From Hemileia vastatrix (taxonomy: Eukaryota > Basidiomycota > Pucciniomycetes > Pucciniales > Zaghouaniaceae): DNA of 64,000 bases. Position 1 is the first letter of the stretch; every line of letters starts with the position of its first letter. The stretch is from NCBI GenBank assembly GCA_030280995.1, contig JASXTE010000011.1, positions 5,303,501 to 5,367,500 of the forward strand, in the 5' to 3' direction. The notes below the pieces were generated by a model. It worked only from the letters and a program-made list of their open reading frames with translations, had not been told where the DNA came from and did no database searches. A program made the translations under genes and the position numbers. This document shows positions 12,346-63,814 of the stretch, piece by piece.

Positions 12346-12583
12346 TTATGGTCAACCAGGAAAAATAAAAAAAAATATAATAATAAAATTAAATTCCAAA
12401 TTACCAGACACCTCCCCCTGCAAAATGAGCAAATTAATGCCACTTACAGAGTGCTGAGTAAAAGGAAATACGTAGCAAATGGAGAGTGAAGAGTAACCCA
12501 CAAATAGTAATAACAATAATTACCACGATATATACGATCTTTAGTCAGTATATGAACTTAAGTTTTGGAGCGCGGTTCGATTC
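12346..12583 (-). other. Rest of element I leader up to element II insertion
   Basis: Non-coding leader of element I, with an isolated pol III B-box-like GGTTCGATTCC at 12574-12584 next to the insertion point of element II. No complete tRNA can be folded here. Confidence 0.6.
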
Positions 12584-12587
12584 CCGT

Positions 12588-13706
12588 TGTGGTAGCCTAA
12601 AGTTTAGTATGGCACCTAAGTACGTAAATGGAGTTATTACGGCGTGCAAGATTGGCGTTATTATTTTTTATATAAGGGTTTTATTTAATTTATTGGAGTT
12701 TAAAATATGAAGAAATTGGTCACGAGCAAATGCCTATACAAATACAATTTATTTTACGGAGAAAACTTATTTTACGGTCTGAAAAATTTATAAGTATCAA
12801 GTCAAGTCACTCAAGAACCTTGGGAAATTTTCCCAGAATTTTTACTATGTTTCTTATATTTTTAAATGAATTTTAAAGTTTTATAGAAATATTTACGTTT
12901 TCAAAAATTACTTAACTTTGATGAATTTTCACGGGGTAATTAGAGCTGCGCAGACTACGAAAATTAGTTTGGTATGTAAAGGGGAAGTAGCTCTATTATG
13001 TGTAATTTTTCTAGATTTTTTATTATAGTTTTAAGGTTCTAATTGAGTCCGGAAGTCCGGACGGACTCCGTTTCGACTCCGTACGGACTCTGCTTTGACT
13101 CCGTACGGGCTCCGGATTGACTCTGGAAGAGCTCTGGAGGGGAAAACTTAGGCACATGACTAGGAATACTTAAGCGCTTCTCAAACTCAAAATTGAGAGG
13201 GGGGACACAACATACAGCTTAATCTTTAACCACCACAGTCTCATTTTTTATTACTCAACAAATTAAATAAATTGTAATACCCTTATAACTTTATATTTTA
13301 TATATAACATTTTAGAAATACTACTCAACAATTTAAATCACACTTCATACAGGGTATCTTTAGAAAGGTCTTCATCACTGGGACTTGATTATTGCTGTCT
13401 CATAAAAATTTAAATTATTATAAAAACATAAAAGTCAATCTTTTCAGATCTTTCACTGGTACACCTTAATTGTTGTTATCAGTATTTCTTCCTCAACAGC
13501 CACTTTTATTAAAATCTCAATAAGCGTTAAATATATTAGAGTTTCATTATTTTTTTATCAATCAGATCCAAGTAGATTGGTTAGCTTAGTGATTTAGAAT
13601 TCCCATTTTGTTATTTTATTGGAAGGACGGGGTTTTCAGCTAAATCCACACATCTCCTCCGGATTCTGCTTACAGCAAGGCGACTGTAAGAGTTTACCTT
13701 ACCATA
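12588..13706 (+). repeat. Element II 5' LTR
   Basis: 1119 bp, TGTGGTA to TACCATA, matching 23432-24528. A TATATAAGG stretch near 12670 could be a TATA box, weakly supported. Around 13045-13130 it has repeated GACTCCGTACGG-type units, the only GC-rich part and the site of the LTR indel. Confidence 0.93.
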
Positions 13707-13708
13707 GT

Positions 13709-13725
13709 TGGCGCCCAACTTGGGG
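13709..13725 (+). promoter_or_regulatory. Primer-binding site of element II
   Basis: TGGCGCCCAACTTGGGG begins two bases after the 5' LTR. The TGG start pairs with a tRNA 3' CCA end. I cannot name the tRNA with certainty. Confidence 0.8.
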
Positions 13726-13777
13726 TTCGATTTCTCTAGCTTTCTTTAAAGACTTACTTGGATCAAGAACGTTATTA

Positions 13778-13839
13778 GCCTGCAAGAGGCTTATTTTCTG
13801 GAACTCTAATTGGATTTTTGTTATTGGCCTGCAAGAGGC
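13778..13839 (+). repeat. Two leader hairpins of element II
   Basis: GCCT-GCAAG-AGGC occurs at 13778-13790 and 13827-13839, just before the gag start codon at 13883. Each is followed by a T-rich stretch. They have the layout of the downstream hairpins but a GCCT/AGGC stem and a 5-nt loop. Confidence 0.65.
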
Positions 13840-13882
13840 TTGTTATTTTATTGATTGTTCATGCTTTTCATTACTTATTGGG

Positions 13883-16492
13883 ATGTCTTCTTCTGCTGTT
13901 GCTTCTGGATCTTCTAACCCTCTTACTCCCTCAGTTAGAATTGTTTCTTGGGATGGCCCAAAGTTTGATGGGGAGGAGGTTAAATGGTTCATTAGCAGGT
14001 ATGAAGCTGCTGCTGCTGTTGATGGTGCTTCTCATGTGGACATGGTGAAGCAAGTTAGATTTTTTATTGCTGATAGGGAGGTGGAAAAAGAGGTTATTGC
14101 TATGCAGGCATTCAAGGACAAGGATTGGGTTAAGCTTTCTAAAGCTATGGTTGATAGATGGGGTGTTAGGTTTACTATGATGGACCTCAATAAAATTGTT
14201 GGAGACTGGCAAGCAAAAGGTGGAGTTTCTTCTATGGCTGACTTCAAAAAGCTCTGTGTTCAGTTTGATGAAGTGGTGGAATATCTCATACTGGTGGACA
14301 AGTTAGTGCATGAGAAACAAGCAAAAGATTTGTTTTGGACAGCATGCAGCAGGGATATTCGTATGGACGTCTTGAAGGATCTTTCAAGAAAAGATTTGAT
14401 GAAGGAACTGCCTAATGGTGAGCAGAAACTGCCGGCTCTGGAGGTTATCAAGGACAACATTCAAGCCCATCTAAAGTTATTGGCGTTGGACAAATATCAA
14501 GAGTCATGCACTCAATATGTTAGCAAGGTTAGCAAAGTTTTGGCCGAAAACAACGATATTATGGTCAAAGCCCAGGAGGCCAAGAAGGCTCAAATGGGAT
14601 TACCTGCTGCTAAAGTTGAGGGTAATGTAGATAATAAGATGGTCGATCACTTGGCCGATTTAACGAAACAATTAAAAATATTTGTTCAAGAAACCCAGAA
14701 GGCCAATAAGGCCCCAATTGCTTCTTCGTCGACGTCAACTTCTTATCAGTCTAGAGGGTATGAACGTCGAAATTATAATGGCAATAATAATGGTAACCGC
14801 TTCCCAGGCAATGGGAGAAATGGTGGTAATGGTGGTAATGGATATAGAGGTGGCTACGATGAGCCAAAGGTGTGCTCCTATTGCAATAGGAGGGGTCACA
14901 GAGCAACAGTTTGTTTTGCTCTTGATAAGGATATGGATGCTGGGCGAGTTTTATTTGATGGTAAAGTTTATAAATTTCCTGATGGTTCGTTCATCAAGCC
15001 CAGTGATGGACAGTCTCCTTCTGATTTGGTCAGAAGAAGTTTAACGGCTGAAAGGAGAGCCAGATTTGAAGAGGTGACAGATGAAGATGTTAATGCCAAG
15101 GGTGGCAAAAATGGTAATGGTAATGGTGGTAAAGCTGACAAGGGCAAGGAGAAAGAGGTCAGTAAAGCCACATTTTCTACTTCTTTTGGTGGTTTAGAGC
15201 TGGCGACAGTTGCCCAGGTGGAGGGTAGCTGTATGGCTGGCGAATACGATGTTAATGCTGCTAGAAGAGCAGCTGCTACTAAGGCGAAGAGTAGCATTCA
15301 GAGCCAATTGAGGGCTAATCCTGGCAAGGCCAATAACAAAGTGAACCCTTACTCTAAGGACAAGAATTCTAGTGCTCAAACTGCCGCCAACAAATTGAAC
15401 CCTTACTCTAAGGACGAATTATATAAAATGCAGAAGGGGATTGCTGATATGGGGCCCCCTAGTTATGGCAAGTTTTATTTAAATGGTGAGCCTATGCCAG
15501 AGGATGATTCGGATTCTGAGGAGGACGTACCGTTGACGTCTCTACCCAGACCAAGTTTTAGCGGTCCCATCCCAATGGAGGGTGTAAGAAGGACTAGCGA
15601 TGGATCAGGATTAGTGCAAGAAGCTGGTGACGGAGTTAGGGTTATAGAAAGTGAAGATGTTATTATGGGAGGTGAAGATGGCTCGGTTGGACCTCAAGAG
15701 GTACCCAGGGCCAAGGTTGTTAAATCAAAGGTCCAGTATGAGCGGCCAGTAGTTTCTGGTCAAGCTAATGCGATGGATGCAGTTTTGAATAGGGTGAATC
15801 AACTGCAGATTCCCTTATCTTTGGGGGAGTTATTTACGATTTGTCCGGTGCTTGCTGAAAAGCAAAAGAAGCATTTGACGAGGCGTCGGGTTTCCACTGG
15901 AGAGGTGGAATATATTTGTGAAAATGCCAAAAAGTTTGGGGAAGATGTAGATACACATTTTTCCGCTCCCCTGGGTTACCTGGTGGTAACTCTTAACGGT
16001 AAAGAAGTTAAGGCCTTGGTCGATTCAGGGTCTCAAATTAATTTAATTTCATTGGAGCAAGCAACAAGTATAGGCTTGCCAATTAAAAGTGGGGCTGGGG
16101 GAAACCTCAGAGGTATTGGAGGGCATGCAACAGAGCTAATGGGTACAGCTGAGCATGTCAGGTTAGGCATTGGTGGATCTGTTGGTAAGTTTCACTTTTA
16201 TGTGGCCAGAGGAGCAGTCAAAACTGTTCTTGGTGGTCCTTTTTTGATGGATTTTGAGGCCAGGATAGGGTATCAAGCTGGCATTGGGATTAGTTTGGAG
16301 ATCACTGGTGAAGATATGCGGAGGTTACATATGCAGTTAGCGCCTCCTGGAGATGAAGGTTGGGAAACACGGCCAGGGACTACTACTCTGTGCCAGTGTT
16401 GTGTTTGCACCAAGAAGCGGCATATTAAACGGACGGCTTCTGGTGAATTATGTTTGTTGGAAAGGGATGGATGCCCTCATTTTTTGGGGTAG
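13883..16492 (+). CDS. Element II gag-protease
   Basis: I place the start at the ATG of MSSSAVASG (869 aa). The frame stays open upstream through the primer-binding site and LTR, but a start there is unlikely. Gag core: VSWDGPKFDGEEVKWF to about residue 200. A canonical CCHC zinc knuckle CSYCNRRGHRATVC near residue 330 (14873-14914). An Asn/Gly-rich linker precedes it and an acidic linker follows. An aspartic protease with VKALVDSGSQINLIS near residue 710 and VLGGPFLMD downstream. It ends in TAG at 16490, just after a slippery TTTTTTG. Confidence 0.92.
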   Translation: MSSSAVASGSSNPLTPSVRIVSWDGPKFDGEEVKWFISRYEAAAAVDGASHVDMVKQVRFFIADREVEKEVIAMQAFKDKDWVKLSKAMVDRWGVRFTMMDLNKIVGDWQAKGGVSSMADFKKLCVQFDEVVEYLILVDKLVHEKQAKDLFWTACSRDIRMDVLKDLSRKDLMKELPNGEQKLPALEVIKDNIQAHLKLLALDKYQESCTQYVSKVSKVLAENNDIMVKAQEAKKAQMGLPAAKVEGNVDNKMVDHLADLTKQLKIFVQETQKANKAPIASSSTSTSYQSRGYERRNYNGNNNGNRFPGNGRNGGNGGNGYRGGYDEPKVCSYCNRRGHRATVCFALDKDMDAGRVLFDGKVYKFPDGSFIKPSDGQSPSDLVRRSLTAERRARFEEVTDEDVNAKGGKNGNGNGGKADKGKEKEVSKATFSTSFGGLELATVAQVEGSCMAGEYDVNAARRAAATKAKSSIQSQLRANPGKANNKVNPYSKDKNSSAQTAANKLNPYSKDELYKMQKGIADMGPPSYGKFYLNGEPMPEDDSDSEEDVPLTSLPRPSFSGPIPMEGVRRTSDGSGLVQEAGDGVRVIESEDVIMGGEDGSVGPQEVPRAKVVKSKVQYERPVVSGQANAMDAVLNRVNQLQIPLSLGELFTICPVLAEKQKKHLTRRRVSTGEVEYICENAKKFGEDVDTHFSAPLGYLVVTLNGKEVKALVDSGSQINLISLEQATSIGLPIKSGAGGNLRGIGGHATELMGTAEHVRLGIGGSVGKFHFYVARGAVKTVLGGPFLMDFEARIGYQAGIGISLEITGEDMRRLHMQLAPPGDEGWETRPGTTTLCQCCVCTKKRHIKRTASGELCLLERDGCPHFLG
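16480..16486 (+). promoter_or_regulatory. Probable -1 ribosomal frameshift site
   Basis: T TTT TTG lies in the gag frame as X XXY YYZ, one codon (GGG) before the gag TAG at 16490. The pol frame is -1 relative to gag and is open only from 16447. This matches the geometry of classical -1 frameshift sites. I did not establish a downstream pseudoknot. Confidence 0.75.
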
Positions 16493-16748
16493 CAGGGGCT
16501 GATCACTCTAATGTTGTAATCTCTCCTCAGGATGAGATCCCAGATTGCAATAGGTCAGCTCACTTGGAGATAATTCAAGTGGATTCTCAATTATTTTCTG
16601 TTAATATTACTTTGGAGTGCAAATACGTTATGGACTTTTCTATATGTTTATTGGATTTACCCGGTTTTTCTATTAAATTTAAAAACGGTGAAAAAGGCAA
16701 AATGGGCCAAATTAGGTTGGATAAAAGTTGGAAGGGTATGTTTTATGA

Positions 16749-17070
16749 CCTCCAGCAAAAGGTTAAACTGCAATTATCTCCTTCTATTTTGGACCTCCAG
16801 CAAGAGGGTAAACTGCGAAAATCTTATCAAAATATGATTAAAAATCTTGGTATGAATAAAACACAAAAAAATAATTTATGTGAAAATGCTATTATGGACC
16901 TCCAGCAAGAGGCTAAACTGCAAGTATCTCCTTCTATTTTGGACCTCCAGCAAGAGGGTAAACTGCGAAAATCTTATCAAAACCCGATTAAAAATCTTGG
17001 TATAATTAAAACTCAAAAAAATAATTTTTGTGAAAATTCAATTCCAGTCCTCCAGCAAGAGGTTAAACTG
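16749..17070 (+). repeat. Hairpin array in pol linker before RT (5 copies)
   Basis: CCTC-CAGCAA-GAGG followed by NTAAACTGC at 16794, 16899, 16944 and 17049, with a one-base variant (AAGG) at 16749. All are in the same reading frame, giving LQQE(V/G/A)KL. A larger ~150-bp duplication spans two pairs of copies. The region lies between protease and RT, where protein sequence is free to vary. Confidence 0.85.
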
Positions 17071-19049
17071 CCGACTTTCTTTACGGGTGATTTACTGTTG
17101 GATAAGGGAAGAAAAGGTGTTGGAAAATCTGTTTATAAATTAGAGGAGGGAAAGGAGAAAAGGGTAAAATTTAAAAATGAAATAAAATATTTTTCTAATT
17201 TTTCTTATTCTGATTCTGGCGATGAAGAAGATTCATTTGATGAAAGTTTTAATGGCGATACAAAAGAAAATGTTTTACCTCAAGTTAATTTAGATGTGGA
17301 CGCAGCCAAATATAAGAAAGTAGCAAATAAAGTTCGACCTATTAATGAACCGCTACCTGCTGAATTAAATCCACCCTTGAGAAGACCAAGGTTATCAAGA
17401 GATCCTTATGAAAGTCCCTTGGTAAAGAATCCACCTGAATTTTCTGAGACGTCAAGAATCACTTTTGAGAGACTGGGTGTTGTTAATTTTGGACCTGATG
17501 GTTGGTTGTCTGGAGAAGAGAAGAAGTTGTTGTTGGATGTGATGGTCAAGCGAGAGAAGGCCATTGCTTTTGTAGAAGAGGAGAGGGTTGTGTTGAAGCA
17601 TTTGTATGGGGAGCCTTACAAGATTCCTGTGGTATGTCATGAACCGTGGCAGCAGAAACCGATTCCTATTCCGGCTGCATTAAAAGAAGCCTATATTGAA
17701 GTTGTCAGAGAACGGATACGCACTGGACTGTATGAGCAATCAACGTCAAGTTATTCTAGTCCGGTATTTTGTATCAAGAAACCGAGTGGCAAGCTTAGAG
17801 TTGTTCATGATCTTAGGGAATTAAATAGGGTTACAATAAAGGATGCTGGGATACCGCCTAGCGCTGAGGAGTTTGTTGAAGCGTTTGCAGGGAGAGTGTG
17901 TTATGGATTGGGAGATATTATGGGTGGATATGATGAGAGAGAGTTACATCCAGACTCAAGGCCTCTCACTACATTCGATACGCCACTAGGACGTTTACAG
18001 TTAACAAGATTACCTCAAGGAGCAACAAATTCGGTTGCAGTTTATCAAGCTCAGATGGCTTGGATCCTTCAAGACGAAATTCCACAATATGCTGGAATCT
18101 TTATAGATGATGGAGGAATTAAGGGACCAACAACCGACTATGATAACCAGGTGTTGAAAGAGAATCCCGGGATACGCAAATTCATTTGGGAGTTTGCAAT
18201 TACTTTAGAAAGAATCTTGTTTCGAATTGAAGAGGCTGGTTTAACTATTTCAGGTTCAAAATTTTCATGTTGTGTTCCAGCCTTAGAAATATTAGGCCAT
18301 GTGGTATGTAGAGAGGGTAGGATTATGTCCAAGAAGAAAGTTAACAAAATTCAGTCCTGGCCAAGACCCAAGAATACAACTGAAGTTAGAGGGTTTTTAG
18401 GCGTTTGCGTATATGTTAGAATGTTTATTAAGGACTTTTCTTTATTGGCAGCTCCATTGAGACGATTGACGAGAAAGGATGCAGACTGGGAGTGGGATGA
18501 AGAGTGTGAGAAGGCGTTTGTGAAGTTGAAGGAAGTTGTGGGGAAGGATTTAGTCCTGCACAAGTTGGATTATGGAAAAGATTCTGGCAGAATTTATTTA
18601 GCAGTTCATTCAAGTCAGGTTGCAGCTGGGGCGGTTTTGTCTCAGATGGATAAAGCTGGTTACATCAGGCCAGTTAGGTATGAATCTGTAGTATTTACTG
18701 AGGTCGAATCAAGATATTCTCAACCAAAATTGGAATTATGTGGTGTGGCGAAAATACTGAAGAAACTTCAGCATATTTTGTGGGGGCAACATTTTGAGTT
18801 GCAAGTGGATGCGAAATTGTTAATCCAGATGATTAATTCCCCAAGTTTACCGAACGCACCCATGACGAGATGGGTAGCTTTTATTCAACATTTTTCGTTC
18901 GATTTAGTTCATAAGCCTGGCAAAACTTTTACTATGCCAGATGGTTTATCAAGGAGACCACCCACTGAAGAAGATTCAGACTCAGAAGAGTTCGATGAAG
19001 ATATACCTATTATCAAAGCCAGCACTAAAGGAGCTGAAGACTTTCCATA

Positions 19050-19129
19050 CCTCCCCCATGAGGTTAAACTGGCAGGACTATTGTGTTTAGATTATGGTGT
19101 TGATGACCTCCACCAAGAGGATAAACTGG
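19050..19129 (+). repeat. Hairpin pair in pol linker before integrase
   Basis: CCTC-CCCCAT-GAGG-TTAAACTGG at 19050 and CCTC-CACCAA-GAGG-ATAAACTGG at 19107. They sit between RNase H and integrase, again a domain linker. Confidence 0.8.
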
Positions 19130-20763
19130 AAAATAGTTTTTATGTTAATAAAGGTGTTGGAAAAGGTGTAGATAAATTCGGTAGAAAGGAGGTAGAAGAA
19201 GATGTGGTGTATGTAGAGGAAGATGGATTGGTAGTGTGGGATAGTAGTAAATTAAGGAATGGTGTATATGTTGGAGAATTAGAGAATTTAAATAAAAGGG
19301 TGGATAAAGAGAAAGAGGTATTTTCAAATACGGTTTTTGAAGGATCCAAAGGTTCAGAAGAAAAACTTCGACATAGCTCGATTAAAGATTTATTTAGGGG
19401 TCAACGATTATTGGCTCATTCATGTGCAGGTGATATTGGTGATAGAGAAGTCCCTATTGATTTTATATTAATCGATTATCAAGATGAAGTCTGGGGTCAG
19501 ACTGGTTTTTATTTTTTGTTAGTCAAATATTTGTTGACTTTAGAGAGGCCAGAAGAGTGTGAAGACGATGAATGGGTGGCTATCAAGAAGAAGTCATCTA
19601 CGTTTTACCTATCTGGTCGACGTTTAATGAGGAGGAGGTATCCAAATCCTCAAGTAGTTATAACTCAACAGAAGGGGCAAGAATTAGTTTTGAAATCACT
19701 GCATGAAGATCTCGGGCATAGAGGCGTTGGAGAAACGTTTAGAAGAATTTCTGATCGATTTTGGTGGCCTGGCATGAAGATGGCTGTTAAACAGTGGGTT
19801 CAGTCATGCGAAGAATGTCAAAGACGAAGTTATTTAAGGCCAAAAGAACCTGGACGCGCGACGGGTGAATATACGCTCTTTGGAAGAGTTAGTTTAGATG
19901 CCGTTCATATAAAAGAGGGACGGTATAAATATTTAATTGTGGCCAGAGATGATTTATCTGGTTGGGTAGAGGCAGCGCCTCTTATTAATTTAACTGCCAA
20001 AAATGTGGCAGAATTTTTTTTGAATAATTGGGTATATAGGTATGGGGTGATGAAGTTGGTAACGGTAGATGGAGGTCCTGAATTTGAGACAGAGTTTAAA
20101 GAGGCCGTATTGAAAGTTGGATCAAAGGTTAGGGTAGCAACCCCATATTATCCTGAAGCTGAAGGCATGGTTGAAAGAGGGCATCAAGTTATTAAGGATG
20201 CTTTAGTTAAAATTTGTGGGACAAGTGCCGAAAAGTGGAGGCACTATTTACCTTTAGTTTTATTTGCTGATCGAATCACTGCCAAAAGGACTACCGGATT
20301 TTCACCTTATGAACTTGTTTTTGGACAGAAAGCAGTTTTACCGGTTGATTTAGAAGCTGAATCATATCTTGGGGTTGACTGGGACACGGTCAAAACTACT
20401 GAAGAATTATTGTGTGCAAGAATGATGCAGCTAGAAAAGAAAGAAGAATATTTAGAAAAGGCATATTCGCGGATGATGAAGATCCGAAATCAATCAGTTA
20501 GATATTGGGATGAGCGGTTGGCACATTGATTAAGGAAACCTTTGAACCCAGGTGATATGGTCTTGGTGTATAATAGGAGTTTGGAAAGTCAGTGGGGAAA
20601 GATGTTTGCAGATAGGTGGAATGGACCGTATAAAATCAAGGAGCAAGTTTCCGGCGGTTCATATGTGCTAGAAGAGTTGGATGGAGTAGTATTGAAGAAG
20701 AGGGTAGCGGCCGATCAAGTGAAACGGTTCTATCCTAGAGGCACCAGGAGTGCCGAAGTCTAA

Positions 20764-20890
20764 CTCCGAAATGAGGATAAACTACAATTTTAATGACATT
20801 TATCAAATTTTATGGATTCCTCCGCAATGAGGATAAACTATGATATCGACAATATTTTATGACGACCTCTGCAACGAGGATAAACTATCT
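20764..20890 (+). repeat. Three hairpins straight after the pol stop
   Basis: CTC-CGAAAT-GAG-GATAAACTA at 20764, CCTC-CGCAAT-GAGG-ATAAACTA at 20819 and CCTC-TGCAAC-GAGG-ATAAACTA at 20866, spaced about 50 bp in non-coding sequence. Same motif as in the pol linkers, now without any coding constraint. Confidence 0.85.
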
Positions 20891-21737
20891 TCTTTTTTTA
20901 TCAAAATACTTTACTATCGTTACACTGTATATGGTCAACAAAACTGTGATGAAACTTAACGAAATGCAAGAAGACCTTCTTTGAAATTTTCGAAAACTTA
21001 AAATTCTTAAAATATGGGTGAAGATAGTGTTGGAAAATTTTTAAAAATTTATTGGAAGAAGTGTTCACAGGGGAACCTTCTTAATTTAATATTGGCAAGT
21101 GTGGGGGTAATTGATGGGCTGGCTGCTCTATACACAATTACCCCATAATGTTCATTTCCAAAATTTTCCCTGTTTCTAGTTGAATCCTGGCTTTGTCTTT
21201 TAATTTTAGGAAGTCCACTAAGACTATAAACTGGAACGAATCAAGAGACACCACTCTCAACGCCGGATTCAAGATTTTTTTTATTTTATTTTGTTTTGAT
21301 TTTTTTATGTTAGATTGTGATTTCTTTTCTTTAATATATATTATGAATTATTGTAAAGGTGATGCTCACTGGTGGTCTCTAATCATTTTTATAAATTGGA
21401 GGGAGCCCACCCAGTGATCATCATTATAAAAATTATCTTCTAAAAAACTTTCATTTATTTTCTTTTCTTTCAATTTCTCAAAATTGTGTAACCACATCAA
21501 GTTGCACTTGGATGTGGGTATGATGTTGAGGGTACGGCTCATCAAATGGCCGGGGGGCATCTTTTAAAAATTTTATTTAAATTTTTTTTATTATTATTAC
21601 TTTTTTTATCTTTCTTTTCACATTCTTTTATCTTTCTTCAAAAATTATATTTTAACTTTTATTTCAAAAACTATCTTTTCTAAAATCTTTTATTTTAAAT
21701 TAAAAACAAAATTAAAATTAAAAATAAATAAAAATAA

Positions 21738-21768
<31 letters not shown>

Positions 21769-22010
21769 TAAAAATAAAAATAAAATAAAAATAAAAAAAT
21801 AAAAAATAAATAAATAAAAAAATAATTAAATAAATAAAAATAAAATAATAAAATAATAAAAAAATTAATTAATTAATTAAATCAAAATTATTATTATATT
21901 TCTTAGTTTTATTTTTCAGTCTTCATTCCTTTTAGTCTTATTCATTTAGTTTAGACAGGAAACAGGGTCTAGGAGAACTCAATACCTATGGGATTTTACT
22001 TCAAGACAGC
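20891..22010 (+). other. Element II 3' UTR, first part
   Basis: Non-coding part of the long 3' UTR. It holds one hairpin unit at 21212-21233 (AGTC-CACTAA-GACT-ATAAACTGG) and an A/T microsatellite of AAAATA-type units near 21700-21880. Confidence 0.7.
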
Positions 22011-22014
22011 TGTT

Positions 22015-22761
22015 AGTCCTCCAAGACTTTAAACTGGCTACTGTTCAAGACTTTCCTTAAGGTTTTATACGAATTTTGGAGCTGTTAGTCCTCCAAGACT
22101 TTAAACTGGCTAATTTTCAAGACTGTCATTAAAGATTTTATATTGGAGCTGTTAGTCCTTCAAGACTTTAAACTGAATTTCAAGGATGATTCAAGATTTT
22201 ATGGATATTTTTGGAGACGGATTTTTGTATTTTCTTATCAATCAAATGTTAGGTCCACCAAGACCTTAAACTGGAGTGTTATCAAATGTTAGATCCACCA
22301 AGACCTTAAACTGGACTGTTATCAAGCTGTTGGGTCCACCATGACCTTAAACTGGATTTCTTATCGATTAAATGTTTGGTCCACCATGACTTTAAACTGG
22401 CAGTTCATTCATTGTTTTAGTCCACTATGACTTTAAACTGGAAAATTAATATCTGCAGGATAATTCAACATTCATTGGACCACTATGGCCTTATACTGGA
22501 TTACTTGTCGATCAAATGTTTGGTCCACTATGACATTAAACTGGATTATCAAATTTATTCAATCTTTGGTCAAGCCTAGGCCTTACTTAGGAATTTATCA
22601 AGTTATTTATGCACCTAAACGATCTTTGGTCCACCAAGACCATAAACTGGCAATCGATTATATGTTTGGTCTACCAAGACTTTAAATTGGAATGTCAATC
22701 TTGTTTGGATAACTCAATTCAATCTTTTAATTTATCACTTTCCACTAAGACTCTAAACTGG
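22015..22761 (+). repeat. Main 3' UTR hairpin array of element II (~14 copies)
   Basis: Units of 4-bp stem, 6-nt loop and TTAAACTGG recur every 40-75 bp. AGTC/GACT stems start at 22015, 22087, 22154 and 22419. GGTC/GACC or GGTC/GACT stems start at 22252, 22333, 22378, 22628 and 22668. Imperfect copies are near 22292, 22477, 22522, 22568 and 22741. Loops read CTCCAA, CACCAA, CACCAT, CACTAT and similar. Stem bases change in pairs while loop pattern and tail persist. Confidence 0.85.
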
Positions 22762-23419
22762 TTATTCAATTATTTCTGGAATTGGGTGCTGATAAGCTTT
22801 AGGATGTTAAAATTTTAGGTGGTGATGATGCCAAGGAAAGCATAATGGTTAATTAGGTGAAATTTGTGGCGCTTTAAAATGGTCTAAAGTTGAAATTATT
22901 ATTGGAAGCCTGGAAAAAGTATTTTATGGGTTTGCTGTATAGCAAAGTTTGAAAATTGTGATGAAGGAATCAGAAGTTAGGATGGTAGTTGGATTTTAGG
23001 GAATGATTTTTTTAGTGCCTCATAGTTAGGCCATTTTTTTTTGGTGTGAAGCTTGGAGGACCTTATGGCAAGATTGGAATCATAGAATTCGGCTCAGTGG
23101 GGGGCCCTATGAGGTTGGAATCAGGAGTATTCGGCTCATAGGAAGATCCACTCTCTCAATGCTGTGACAAGAAGGAAGACTGGTATATGGGAGTCTGAAG
23201 GGATTCAAACCTTGCTCTCAGTAGTGAAATCATCACAAGATTTATTTTATTTTATTTTATGTTATATCAAGCCAGAGAAGAAGAAACAACATTTTTATTA
23301 TAAAGAATTAAAAGAAGACCAGCTAAAACAAATTTATCAAATTACTTTATTGGAAAAGATAATTCTTTTGGAATTGCTCAACCACTTATGCAAAGTTTTA
23401 AGAATGGGGACATTCTCGA
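22762..23419 (+). other. Element II 3' UTR, last part
   Basis: No gene or further hairpin units recognised between the array and the polypurine tract. A 91-codon frame at 23164-23439 runs into the LTR and has no known domain. Confidence 0.55.
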
Positions 23420-23431
23420 TTGGAGGGAGGA
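23420..23431 (+). promoter_or_regulatory. Polypurine tract of element II
   Basis: TTGGAGGGAGGA directly precedes the TGTGGTAGCC start of the 3' LTR. Confidence 0.8.
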
Positions 23432-24528
23432 TGTGGTAGCCTAAAGTTTAGTATGGCACCTAAGTACGTAAATGGAGTTATTACGGCGTGCAAGATTGGC
23501 GTTATTATTTTTTATATAAGGGTTTTATTTAATTTATTGGAGTTTAAAATATGAAGAAATTGGTCACGAGCGAATGCCTATACAAATACAATTTATTTTA
23601 CGGAGAAAACTTATTTTACGGTCTGAAAAATTTATAAGTATCAATTCAAGTCACTCAAGAACCTTGGGAAATTTTCCCAGAATTTTTACTATTTTTCTTA
23701 TATTTTTAAATGAATTTTAAAGTTTTATAGAAATATTTACGTTTTCAAAAATTACTTAACTTTGATGAATTTTCACGGGGTAATTAGAGCTGCGCAGACT
23801 ACGAAAATTAGTTTGGTATGTAAAGGGGAAGTAGCTCTATTATGTGTAATTTTTCTAGATTTTTTATTATAGTTTTAAGGTTCTAATTGAGTCCGGAAGT
23901 CCGGACGGACTCCGTTTCGACTCCGTACGGGCTCCGGATTGACTCTGGAAGAGCTCTGGAGGGGAAAACTTAGGCACATGACTAGGAATACTTAAGCGCT
24001 TCTCAAACTCGAAATTGAGAGGGGGGACACAACATACAGCTTAATCTTTAACCACCACAGTCTCATTTTTTATTACTCAACAAATTAAATAAATTGTAAT
24101 ACCCTTATAACTTTATATTTTATATATAACATTTTAGAAATACTACTCAACAATTTAAATCACACTTCATACAGGGTATCTTTAGAAAGGTCTTCATCAC
24201 TGGGACTTGATTATTGCTGTCTCATAAAAATTTAAATTATTATAAAAACATAAAAGTCAATCTTTTCAGATCTTTCACTGGTACACCTTAATTGTTGTTA
24301 TCAGTATTTCTTCCTCAACAGCCACTTTTATTAAAATCTCAATAAGCGTTAAATATATTAGAGTTTCATTATTTTTTTATCAATCAGATCCAAGTAGATT
24401 GGTTAGCTTAGTGATTTAGAATTCCCATTTTGTTATTTTATTGGAAGGACGGGGTTTTCAGCTAAATCCACACATCTCCTCCGGATTCTACTTACAGCAA
24501 GGCGACTGTAAGAGTTTACCTTACCATA
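23432..24528 (+). repeat. Element II 3' LTR
   Basis: 1097 bp, nearly identical to 12588-13706 except for a ~22-bp deletion in the TCCGTACGG repeat and a few base changes. Confidence 0.93.
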
Positions 24529-24532
24529 CCGT

Positions 24533-24679
24533 TTGCAGCAAAAACTTTTATCACGTGACGTATGACGTTCGTCGTTTTCTCGCCTCCACTCGTCCTTTAC
24601 AGGTACCTGTACGCCGATGGTCCCCTCGATTACGCCTCAAGTAACGTTGCGCCGTCGATATTTCGGAAAGTATCCCAAT
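24533..24679 (-). other. Element I leader fragment with primer-binding site
   Basis: The part of element I cut off by element II. It is clearly richer in G and C than its surroundings (several CG dinucleotides). On the minus strand ATTGGGATACTTTCC (24665-24679) abuts the LTR end. Elements III and IV have the related ATTGGGGAACTTTC and ATTGGGGGTCTTTCC in the same place, so the family shares a primer. Confidence 0.75.
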
Positions 24680-62174: not shown

Positions 62175-63814
62175 ATAGCTTGGTCAATTCTACTTCAAAA
62201 AAATCTGAATATTTTATTTGACTATAAATATTCTTATTGACCTACAAAGATGCTATTAATACAGTTTTTGCTCATTATTTGACAAATATTTCTAAATCGT
62301 TACAAAATAATAATTTATATTGGAATATCCATGACTTGGTAAAATTGACTTAATATACAATTATTAATAAATAATTAGATTCAAAATCATCATTTTAACT
62401 ATCTTAAATATTGAAAACATGATTCTAGAAATTTATTTGATAATGATGTGGGAATAATTTAAGTATGGATAGCTCATTTGATCCAAAAACCATTAGATTA
62501 AGATTTTTGCATGGTTTAGAAAGACTTTCAGGAAAGTATTGAAAAATTAGAGCTATTAGGCTTTTTTTTATTTTAATATATATAATAATAGTGCATTAAT
62601 TATTTTAAATTCTGGTTTTATCAAAGGTTTGAGAATCTGGTATGTTTTTATGGTCATGGTTTCAAGCACTTAATCAAGCAATATTTTTCATATTGATTCA
62701 ATTTTCTGAGATTTATGATGAGTTGCCGCTATGCATTGGTAGACTGGTATTGATATAGACAGCCCTTTTATTATCTGATACGGCTCTCTGAAATGCATTG
62801 GTAGGCTTGTGTTGATCTAGATAGTCTTTGTATTGTCTTAAATGAATTTCTAACAAGTTTTTGGTTGGTTTTTGATTGATCTATTTGTTCCTTGTGATTC
62901 CCTTTATGACTTGAAACATAAATTAATCATCCAGTTTGAATCTATCTTGCCTTTGTATTCACTTATACATAATATAGATCACTAATACATATTTTCAGGC
63001 TATTTTTACTCTTACAGGAACTTATAATGTTTATTTTTCAACACATTTTAAGAATAGAAATCATCCATTGGTAATTTTTTTCATTGTTCATATTTTTATC
63101 ATTCACAGGTGGTTGTAGAATTGAATTTATTAGCTATCCATAGTACTTCTTAGTGGTTTTTATTTCTTGTAACAAAAAGACAGAATATGAAGAATCAAGG
63201 AGAGGGAGTGTAAAATAGATGGAAGGGGTAAGTGGGTGAAAGAAATTTATTCAGAACTTCATAAAAAAAAGGGTAATATGAAGCAAGGATAGGGGGTAAA
63301 GGTCAACATTAGAGGGATATGAAAGGAAGAAGAAAGCTAGAGACTCAAGCATAAGAGGGAGGGATGAAAAATATAAGATCAAAGGCTAACTATTACTAAA
63401 TAGGGAGCTAAAGATGGGGTGAGAGGCTTTTAGAAATGGTCACTAAAGCAAGTGCAAAATATAAAATGAAGAGCCTGTGAAAGGTCACTCCTAGCATCAT
63501 CCCCTGGGCTCTATTGGGGTCACCACCTGAATCATACCCATATGTGTACCCTGAATCCTAAGACTAAACCAGTTGTCTGGTTCAAAATATTTCCCCCTGT
63601 TAATAGTATTTTTGATATTTGAGTCAACTAGTTTTCTTAAAAAACTAATAAAATTATATTTAATCATTTTAAGGCTTTTCAATGGAATAAATATAATAAA
63701 AAATAACAGGTTTTCATATAAATAAATTAATAATTTACATTTTTTAAATTGATTACTACTTTAATTTAAACTATTTTGTTACTCAAAAATTATTACAACA
63801 CCTATAAATTCTTA

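Follow-up and report, generated by a model that had tools for sequence, protein, structure and literature searches.

An array of 24 covarying, coremin-like RNA units in a Ty3/Gypsy retrotransposon of Hemileia vastatrix and its possible role as a series of 5′–3′ exoribonuclease blocks

The window analyzed here is a 64,000-nucleotide stretch of the Hemileia vastatrix genome (GenBank assembly GCA_030280995.1, contig JASXTE010000011.1, positions 5,303,501 to 5,367,500 of the forward strand), and positions within it are used throughout. It harbors a long terminal repeat (LTR) retrotransposon, denoted element II, which encodes protease, reverse transcriptase (RT), RNase H, and integrase in this order and is on these grounds a Ty3/Gypsy element. 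Element II lies on the plus strand between a left LTR at 12588–13706 and a right LTR at 23432–24528, which share 97.6% identity. A gag-protease frame (13883–16492), with the aspartyl protease at approximately residues 698 to 795 and a CCHC-like zinc knuckle recognized by eye, is followed by a pol frame (16450–20529; the stop codon of this copy is at 20527–20529) that contains Pfam domains for RT, RNase H, and integrase, with the integrase core match scoring under the Pfam cut-off. The nearest solved relative is Ty3 Gag-Pol (best PDB sequence match, 7q5b). Dispersed along the sense strand of this element are 24 copies of a 23-nucleotide unit that covaries as an RNA structure, resembles the viral exonuclease-resistant RNA (xrRNA) known as coremin, and may act as a block to 5′–3′ exoribonucleases.

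Each unit consists of a 4-bp stem (S1), a six-nucleotide loop, and a tail of the form (N)TAAACTxx; 22 of the units are retrieved by a relaxed descriptor, and two (units 1 and 20) are degenerate. Upstream of RT lie five units; the linker from RNase H to integrase has two, the pol end three, and the 3′ untranslated region (UTR) 14. Those within pol are confined to 16749–17071 and 19050–19129, outside the Pfam domains. Units with a TAAACTG tail are assigned to a CTG class and those with a TAAACTA tail, the pol-end units, to a CTA class; S2 denotes the pairing of loop bases 3 to 5 with the final three tail bases. The units before RT are the degenerate unit 1 (16749–16771; CCTC cagcaa AAGG TTAAACTGC) and units 2 to 5 (16794–16816, 16899–16921, 16944–16966, and 17049–17071), which belong to the CTG class with an S2 of GCA/TGC. 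Units 6 and 7 in the RNase H–integrase linker (19050–19072 and 19107–19129) are of the same class with an S2 of CCA/TGG. The CTA class is represented by unit 8 (20763–20785; loop CGAAAT, tail TAAACTAC), in which the outermost stem position is an unpaired A-G, unit 9 (20819–20841; loop CGCAAT, tail TAAACTAT), and unit 10 (20866–20888; loop TGCAAC). In the 3′ UTR, AGTC/GACT stems are found in units 11 and 19 (21212–21234 and 22419–22441; S2 of CTA/TGG with one G-U), units 12 and 13 (22015–22037 and 22087–22109; CCA/TGG), and unit 14 (22154–22176; TCA/TGA), and GGTC/GACC stems in units 15 (22252–22274; CCA/TGG), 17 (22333–22355), and 22 (22628–22650). The other 3′ UTR units are unit 16 (22292–22314; GATC/GACC, one stem mismatch), unit 18 (22378–22400; GGTC/GACT with an outer G-U), the degenerate unit 20 (22477–22499; GGAC cactat GGCC TTATACTGG), unit 21 (22522–22544; GGTC/GACA, one stem mismatch), unit 23 (22668–22690; GGTC/GACT, one tail mismatch), and unit 24 (22739–22761; TTTC/GACT, two stem mismatches with S2 intact).

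Seventeen units combine a complete 4-bp stem (G-U allowed) with an exact TAAACT, whereas 300 dinucleotide shuffles of 13707–23431 yield 0.09 on average and never more than 2. The rest of the window contributes a single further complete-stem site, at 63752, with a stem made up of A and T only, and the minus strand has none. A first-pass annotation of this DNA had described at least 20 copies of a stem-loop with a TAAACTG-type tail in one retrotransposon, with stems in paired versions (CCTC/GAGG, AGTC/GACT, and GGTC/GACC) and with the pol copies falling only in linkers between domains, and on all three points it was right. Its view of a persistent tail does not hold, as the tail ends in GG, GA, GC, AT, or AC in covariation with the loop. 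Nor is there support for kinship between the units and two leader hairpins (GCCT-GCAAG-AGGC, 13778–13790 and 13827–13839), which it had taken as members of the array: these have a five-nucleotide loop and no TAAACT tail, are not counted as units here, and yield no covariation because they are identical in all 10 related leaders compared. The leader hairpins possibly have a packaging or dimerization role.

For the analysis of S1 and of the two classes, units were collected with the anchor ..TC......GA...TAAACT.., which by design fixes the inner two stem pairs and the tail core and leaves the outer stem pairs, the loop, and the tail end free. The counts of outer S1 pairs, of S2 in distinct cores, and of codons refer to 21 sequences (the window piece and stretches L022–L041; L002–L021, which overlap this set, were left out), and a downstream-fold test discussed below and a further collection of units with the anchor refer to 24 (with L042–L044 added). 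The copies are relatives of one another within a single genome, and the counts are of distinct units rather than of evolutionary events. In the 21 element stretches (212,100 bases), the anchor has 382 matches on the strand in which they were retrieved and four on the opposite strand. The two outer S1 pairs, left free by an anchor that fixes only the inner TC/GA, both form in 329 of the 382 copies and in 53 of the 77 distinct forms, compared with a mean of 25.9 and a maximum of 40 in 10,000 shuffles.

The loop is also engaged in pairing. In the CTG class, loop bases 3 to 5 pair with tail bases 7 to 9 as CCA/TGG, CTA/TGG, TCA/TGA, or GCA/TGC. When distinct cores of complete-stem units are considered (one of 68, with a TGGA stem, was dropped beforehand), S2 forms in 42 of the 52 CTG-class cores (shuffled mean 26.9, maximum 38; 10,000 shuffles) and in only one of the 15 CTA-class cores; in element II itself, all 19 CTG-class units found by the relaxed descriptor have S2. 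In 18 of the 19 copies with the odd combination of loop CCCCAA and tail CTGA, a GG comes next and may allow the pairing to continue beyond a bulge. Scored as a seven-pair pseudoknot, the 65 distinct CTG-class units have 93.2% of cells paired (78.8% shuffled), 62 cells changed on both sides (20.9 shuffled), and a covariation of 0.384 (0.147 shuffled), values reached by none of 500 shuffles, and sliding the partners by one to three columns leaves only 20 to 39% paired. Across these units, pair 7-23 is CG in 35, GC in eight, UA in seven, UG in two, and other in 13, and pair 8-22 is CG in 46, UG in 17, and other in two. For S1 in the 37 distinct CTA-class units, the corresponding values are 91.2% paired cells (81.4% shuffled), 12 double-sided changes (2.7), and a covariation of 0.247 (0.068), again with none of 500 shuffles as high. 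A pairing of loop G2 with the last spacer base was considered for the CTA class and dropped, since the tails TAAACTAG and TAAACTAA disallow it in some units.

Loop–tail pairing with compensatory changes, the signature by which an H-type pseudoknot is recognized, is found in the CTG class only. Judged by this covariation, the CTG-class unit is a small H-type pseudoknot with a 4-bp S1, a two-nucleotide first loop, a 3-bp S2, one junction base, and an A-rich connector of the TTAAAC kind, and these data strongly support selection on the units as RNA structure. Minimal H-type pseudoknots of the luteovirus frameshift type likewise have a two-nucleotide first loop, a 3-bp second stem, one junction base, and a short, A-rich last loop. 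The units differ from these in being repeated, the nearest one lying ≈260 nucleotides past the gag-pol overlap, and no frameshift role is seen for them. Within the overlap itself (43 bases, 16450–16492), where the gag and pol frames differ, there are six consecutive T, and the overlap is by its sequence a candidate programmed-frameshifting site.

Peptides of the form LxxExKL in long open frames of the 21 sequences invariably use the codons CTC, GAG, and AAA (92 of 92, many of them near-copies of one another), whereas background use in the same kind of frames is 7% for CTC, 44% for GAG, and 54% for AAA; the last leucine is CTG in 83, CTA in eight, and TTG in one. In a divergent family (L042–L044), in which aligned pol stretches are 50 to 70% identical at the protein level, the RNase H–integrase linker instead encodes peptides such as VRDDNKL or VCDDNKL in the pol frame. 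Its units are mostly 33 nucleotides apart and have stems of TGTC/GACA, CGTC/GACG, and CGTC/GACA, of which the third has an outer C-A mismatch; two or three more units with CCTC/GAGG stems follow pol. By the measure of codon use, selection acts on the nucleotides and not on the peptide, and an explanation at the peptide level is rejected by the invariance of all 92 instances. The LQQExKL-like peptides that the first-pass annotation had seen imposed in the linkers are real and find their explanation at this nucleotide level. Partial tandem duplication is present in element II, as a 150-bp repeat at 16743–17071 and a 40-bp repeat at 22241–22400, but simple duplication of a single sequence, which the annotation had named as the finding that would overturn its view, is rejected by the compensatory variation, because stem and loop types differ between copies and covary. 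Its claim that both strands of the stem change together is borne out by the outer S1 pairs; its hairpin survives as a selected RNA structure, though not as a simple hairpin, given the additional loop–tail pairing of most units.

Retention of the units in other elements argues in the same direction. Related element families keep units with different stems and peptides, and L025 and L029 have them even though blastn listed no alignment longer than 150 bp over most of the linkers and the 3′ UTR. Stretch L041 (4681–10000) is probably, to judge from its sequence, a non-autonomous element that has kept the array: its LTR ends are 97% identical over 361 bp (the stretch ends within the right LTR), a 465-codon open frame has gag similarity over residues 18 to 197, 11 units are found downstream by the anchor (10 with a complete stem), and no pol match is found at an E value of 1e-5. 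That this pol-less element keeps the array suggests that the units have a role in cis. In the 747.6-Mb assembly, CAAGACNTTAAACTGG occurs 111,470 times with up to two mismatches (2,681 for the reversed control), and the coremin-class pattern CTCYGNNADGAGNNTAAACTA is found in 14,945 exact copies (none for the reversed control).

The known RNA that the units most recall is coremin (xrRNA-C), which is found in RNA3 of beet necrotic yellow vein virus (BNYVV) and its relatives, with hexaloop variants in umbra-, enamo-, hypo-, and chrysoviruses (PMC10520033). Coremin is described with a loop consensus of YGAD or YGNNAD; its hexaloop form consists of the stem, a loop that generally has to fit YGNNAD, and the spacer UUAAACUAC, and the fold was unsolved as of 2023. 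Viral coremins lie in 3′ UTRs, over the stop codon in two viruses, and are repeated in some (PMC10520033). BNYVV coremin gives rise to an Xrn1-dependent stable RNA in yeast (PMC5869530). Element II units and coremin have in common a 4-bp stem with C-G and U-A as top pairs, a six-nucleotide loop with a pyrimidine first and A fifth, the spacer (U)UAAACU, of which TAAACT served to select the units, and a 3′ UTR location; in several related copies of the element, the pol stop codon overlaps a unit or comes just after it, much as in the two viruses. The first hairpin of coremin, a 4-bp stem with a four- or six-nucleotide loop, is matched by the 17 complete units, and some other units lack the outermost pair. 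Units 9 and 8 carry the loops CGCAAT and CGAAAT, both of which fit YGNNAD, with TAAACTA tails; as CGCAAU and CGAAAU, these loops stalled Xrn1 in the BNYVV context (PMC10520033). The last loop base of unit 10, a C, is off the consensus.

More generally, the two classes together comprise 102 distinct units, every one of which has A as loop base 5, a position that was not used for selection. Among the 65 CTG-class loops, the first base is a pyrimidine in 64 and the second is G in three, whereas the fifth is always A and the sixth always A or T, and the tail of this class has G where the coremin spacer has A: after TAAACT, which was selected for, the CTA class continues with A and then C, T, G, or A, and the CTG class with G and then G, A, or C. 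The CTG class thus seems to be a sister class of coremin in which the loop–tail helix substitutes for the loop G. Element II differs from the viral systems in being an LTR retrotransposon with 24 copies and no evident second hairpin, and in consisting mostly of the class with CCA/UGG, CUA/UGG, UCA/UGA, or GCA/UGC pairing and no loop G. The array is not filed as coremin outright because the CTA class, although its loop and spacer largely agree with coremin, lacks the second hairpin on average and the CTG class fails the loop consensus as well. An Rfam search of 12500–24600, in which the presence of a coremin model in Rfam was left unchecked, gave no match up to E = 1.

The hexaloop coremin pattern is also found in viral contigs of IMG/VR. 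With matched stems, the scan returned 42 stretches of the CTC/GAG type and at least 120 of the GTC/GAC type, compared with four and two, respectively, for broken stems used as control. A detailed set of 122 loci with 124 matches (80 of the loci drawn from the GTC/GAC stretches), many rows of which are near-copies, has the loops CGAAAT and CGCAAT in 67 matches together and forms the fourth stem pair in 45; example sites are L104 1228, L102 4977, and L151 7471. In Enterococcus phage SEsuP-1, the pattern falls between two genes (L213 2674–2694), and the two IMG/VR neighborhoods examined match Lactobacillus and Enterococcus phages. Rfam named nothing at the pattern sites in 18 of the 122 loci. This distribution supports the coremin pattern as a real, reused fold. 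Among viral contigs, no relative of the pol was found; a 3′ UTR unit pattern gave one contig, with a single match and tail motifs no more numerous than expected by chance, and the CTG-class pattern with its stem gave none. We hypothesize that in phages the coremin pattern would block RNase J1; a search of open-licence papers listed no report of an xrRNA in a phage with this enzyme. Flavivirus xrRNA, which occurs in tandem pairs, is a protein-free block to 5′–3′ exonucleases that also stops the bacterial RNase J1 and Dxo1, and exonuclease blocks can for this reason be purely mechanical (PMC5760640); relative to the units, flavivirus xrRNAs are different and larger folds (PMC10520033).

We lean, with modest confidence, toward the reading that each unit is a pseudoknot of the coremin kind that would act as a mechanical block to 5′–3′ exoribonucleases, with Xrn1 as the eukaryotic enzyme; the blocking activity is inferred from the likeness to coremin. 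A 4-bp S1, a six-nucleotide loop whose bases 3 to 5 pair in most units with the end of the tail, and the TTAAAC connector would together stop Xrn1 at the 5′ edge of the unit. With 24 such blocks strung along the genomic RNA, outside the leader and the recognized protein domains, decay from the 5′ end would stall at successive units, keep Xrn1 on the RNA, and leave a staged series of protected 3′ fragments. Xrn1 retained in this way might serve assembly, or the RNA might simply be spared from decay. The assembly step is speculation, to which Ty3 of yeast, likewise a Ty3/Gypsy element by its pol, lends a rationale: Ty3 depends on Xrn1 for the recruitment of RNA and Gag to retrosomes, and its assembly takes place in P-bodies (PMC4589538). 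No array of this kind is mentioned for Ty3 in the text consulted, and no search aimed at one was made. The absence of units from the leader fits exonuclease blocking because a coremin there would stall scanning ribosomes.

Several observations weigh against this reading. The first unit lies ≈3 kb past the left LTR, and the array consequently cannot protect the full-length RNA but only its 3′ parts. The fold itself is not uniform: the outer S1 pairs fail, singly or together, in 24 of the 77 distinct forms, the outermost pair fails in 13 of the 37 distinct CTA-class units and is missing from unit 8, S2 fails in 10 of the 52 distinct CTG-class cores, and in neither class do covarying pairs, or types of pair, outnumber those in shuffles. 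Most units lack the loop G, with YGNNAD fitted by 25 of 37 distinct CTA-class units and three of 65 in the CTG class. Coremin requires a second hairpin directly after the spacer (PMC10520033), and BNYVV coremin requires ≈21 nucleotides of downstream sequence (PMC5869530). No such hairpin is found here, as the 35 nucleotides after the units fold on average like shuffles (mean z of 0.07 for 59 CTA-class and −0.09 for 194 CTG-class units), a null result for the average that leaves room for a second hairpin in single copies. Finally, neither CAGAAA nor CAAGAA was a functional loop in BNYVV coremin (PMC10520033), though both were tested with a CUAC spacer, with which the loop–tail helix is impossible, and not with CUGG or CUGC.

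The best surviving alternative, which we judge unlikely, is that the units are dispersed packaging or assembly sites, each pseudoknot being bound by the zinc-knuckle nucleocapsid of Gag so that many copies make RNA capture cooperative. A single fold in many cis copies and a gag frame with a CCHC-like knuckle speak for it, and the retention of the array in the gag-similar, pol-less L041 is as a packaging signal would predict. Packaging signals usually lie in or near the leader, however, where no unit is found, and the units resemble a motif whose known activity needs no element protein. The first-pass annotation had favored binding sites for Gag or a host factor, and nothing was found that points there; what the unit resembles, in stem, loop, and spacer, is coremin. 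Translation control, in which the pseudoknots slow ribosomes at pol domain borders and at the pol end while those in the 3′ UTR are superfluous or have another function, is quite improbable. It draws on the placement of units upstream of RT, in the RNase H–integrase linker, and, near the stop codon in several related copies, at the end of pol, and coremin does stall scanning ribosomes in vitro (PMC10520033), but 14 of the 24 units lie in the 3′ UTR, where no ribosome is expected, and L041 keeps such units without pol.

A role as localization or export sites for a host protein that reads the loop–tail surface, with no exonuclease blocking, is very improbable. A protein could recognize the conserved letters of loop and tail; conservation alone does not discriminate among these possibilities; there is no candidate protein, and a shared one is unlikely because the same stem-loop-tail pattern spans plant and fungal RNA viruses (PMC10520033) and IMG/VR contigs. 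Finally, a repeat maintained at the peptide or DNA level, either as LxxExKL protease sites in pol or as functionless tandem duplication, could appeal to the position of the linker units where maturation cleavage might be expected, to the 150-bp and 40-bp repeats, and to the common reading phase of every pol unit examined, but is hardly credible, being already contradicted by the codon invariance, the other peptides with the same fold in L042–L044, the units in untranslated RNA, and the compensatory changes.

Other features of the window were also noted. The sequence TGGCGCCCAAC at 13709–13719 on the plus strand, immediately 3′ of the left LTR, is by its sequence and position a putative primer-binding site. 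Both LTRs hold 22-bp tandem repeats (13056–13138 and 23900–23949), and an open frame at the start of the window holds a tandem array with a period of ≈72 bp (245–730).

Taken as a whole, exonuclease blocking by the units leads to a broader proposal, to which we give slightly less than even credence: that a retrotransposon of a host genome, rather than an RNA virus, has acquired in evolution an extended series of pseudoknots that block exonucleases, some of them of a new coremin class whose loop–tail helix stands in for the essential loop G, and with it stalls Xrn1 stepwise, and that, with the stem-dependent occurrence of the pattern in viral contigs, including those of phages, the fold may be a general 5′–3′ exonuclease stop of eukaryotic and bacterial mobile elements. 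In the open-licence papers covered, xrRNAs are described from RNA viruses, and we found there no report of one in a retrotransposon and, consistent with the first-pass annotation, no described Ty3/Gypsy element with such an array. If correct, this proposal would extend xrRNAs to endogenous elements, with more than 10,000 exact copies of the pattern in one genome, and would supply a naturally occurring set of covarying variants from which the coremin fold could be worked out. Furthermore, the question of why Ty3-like elements depend on Xrn1 and P-bodies would become directly testable.

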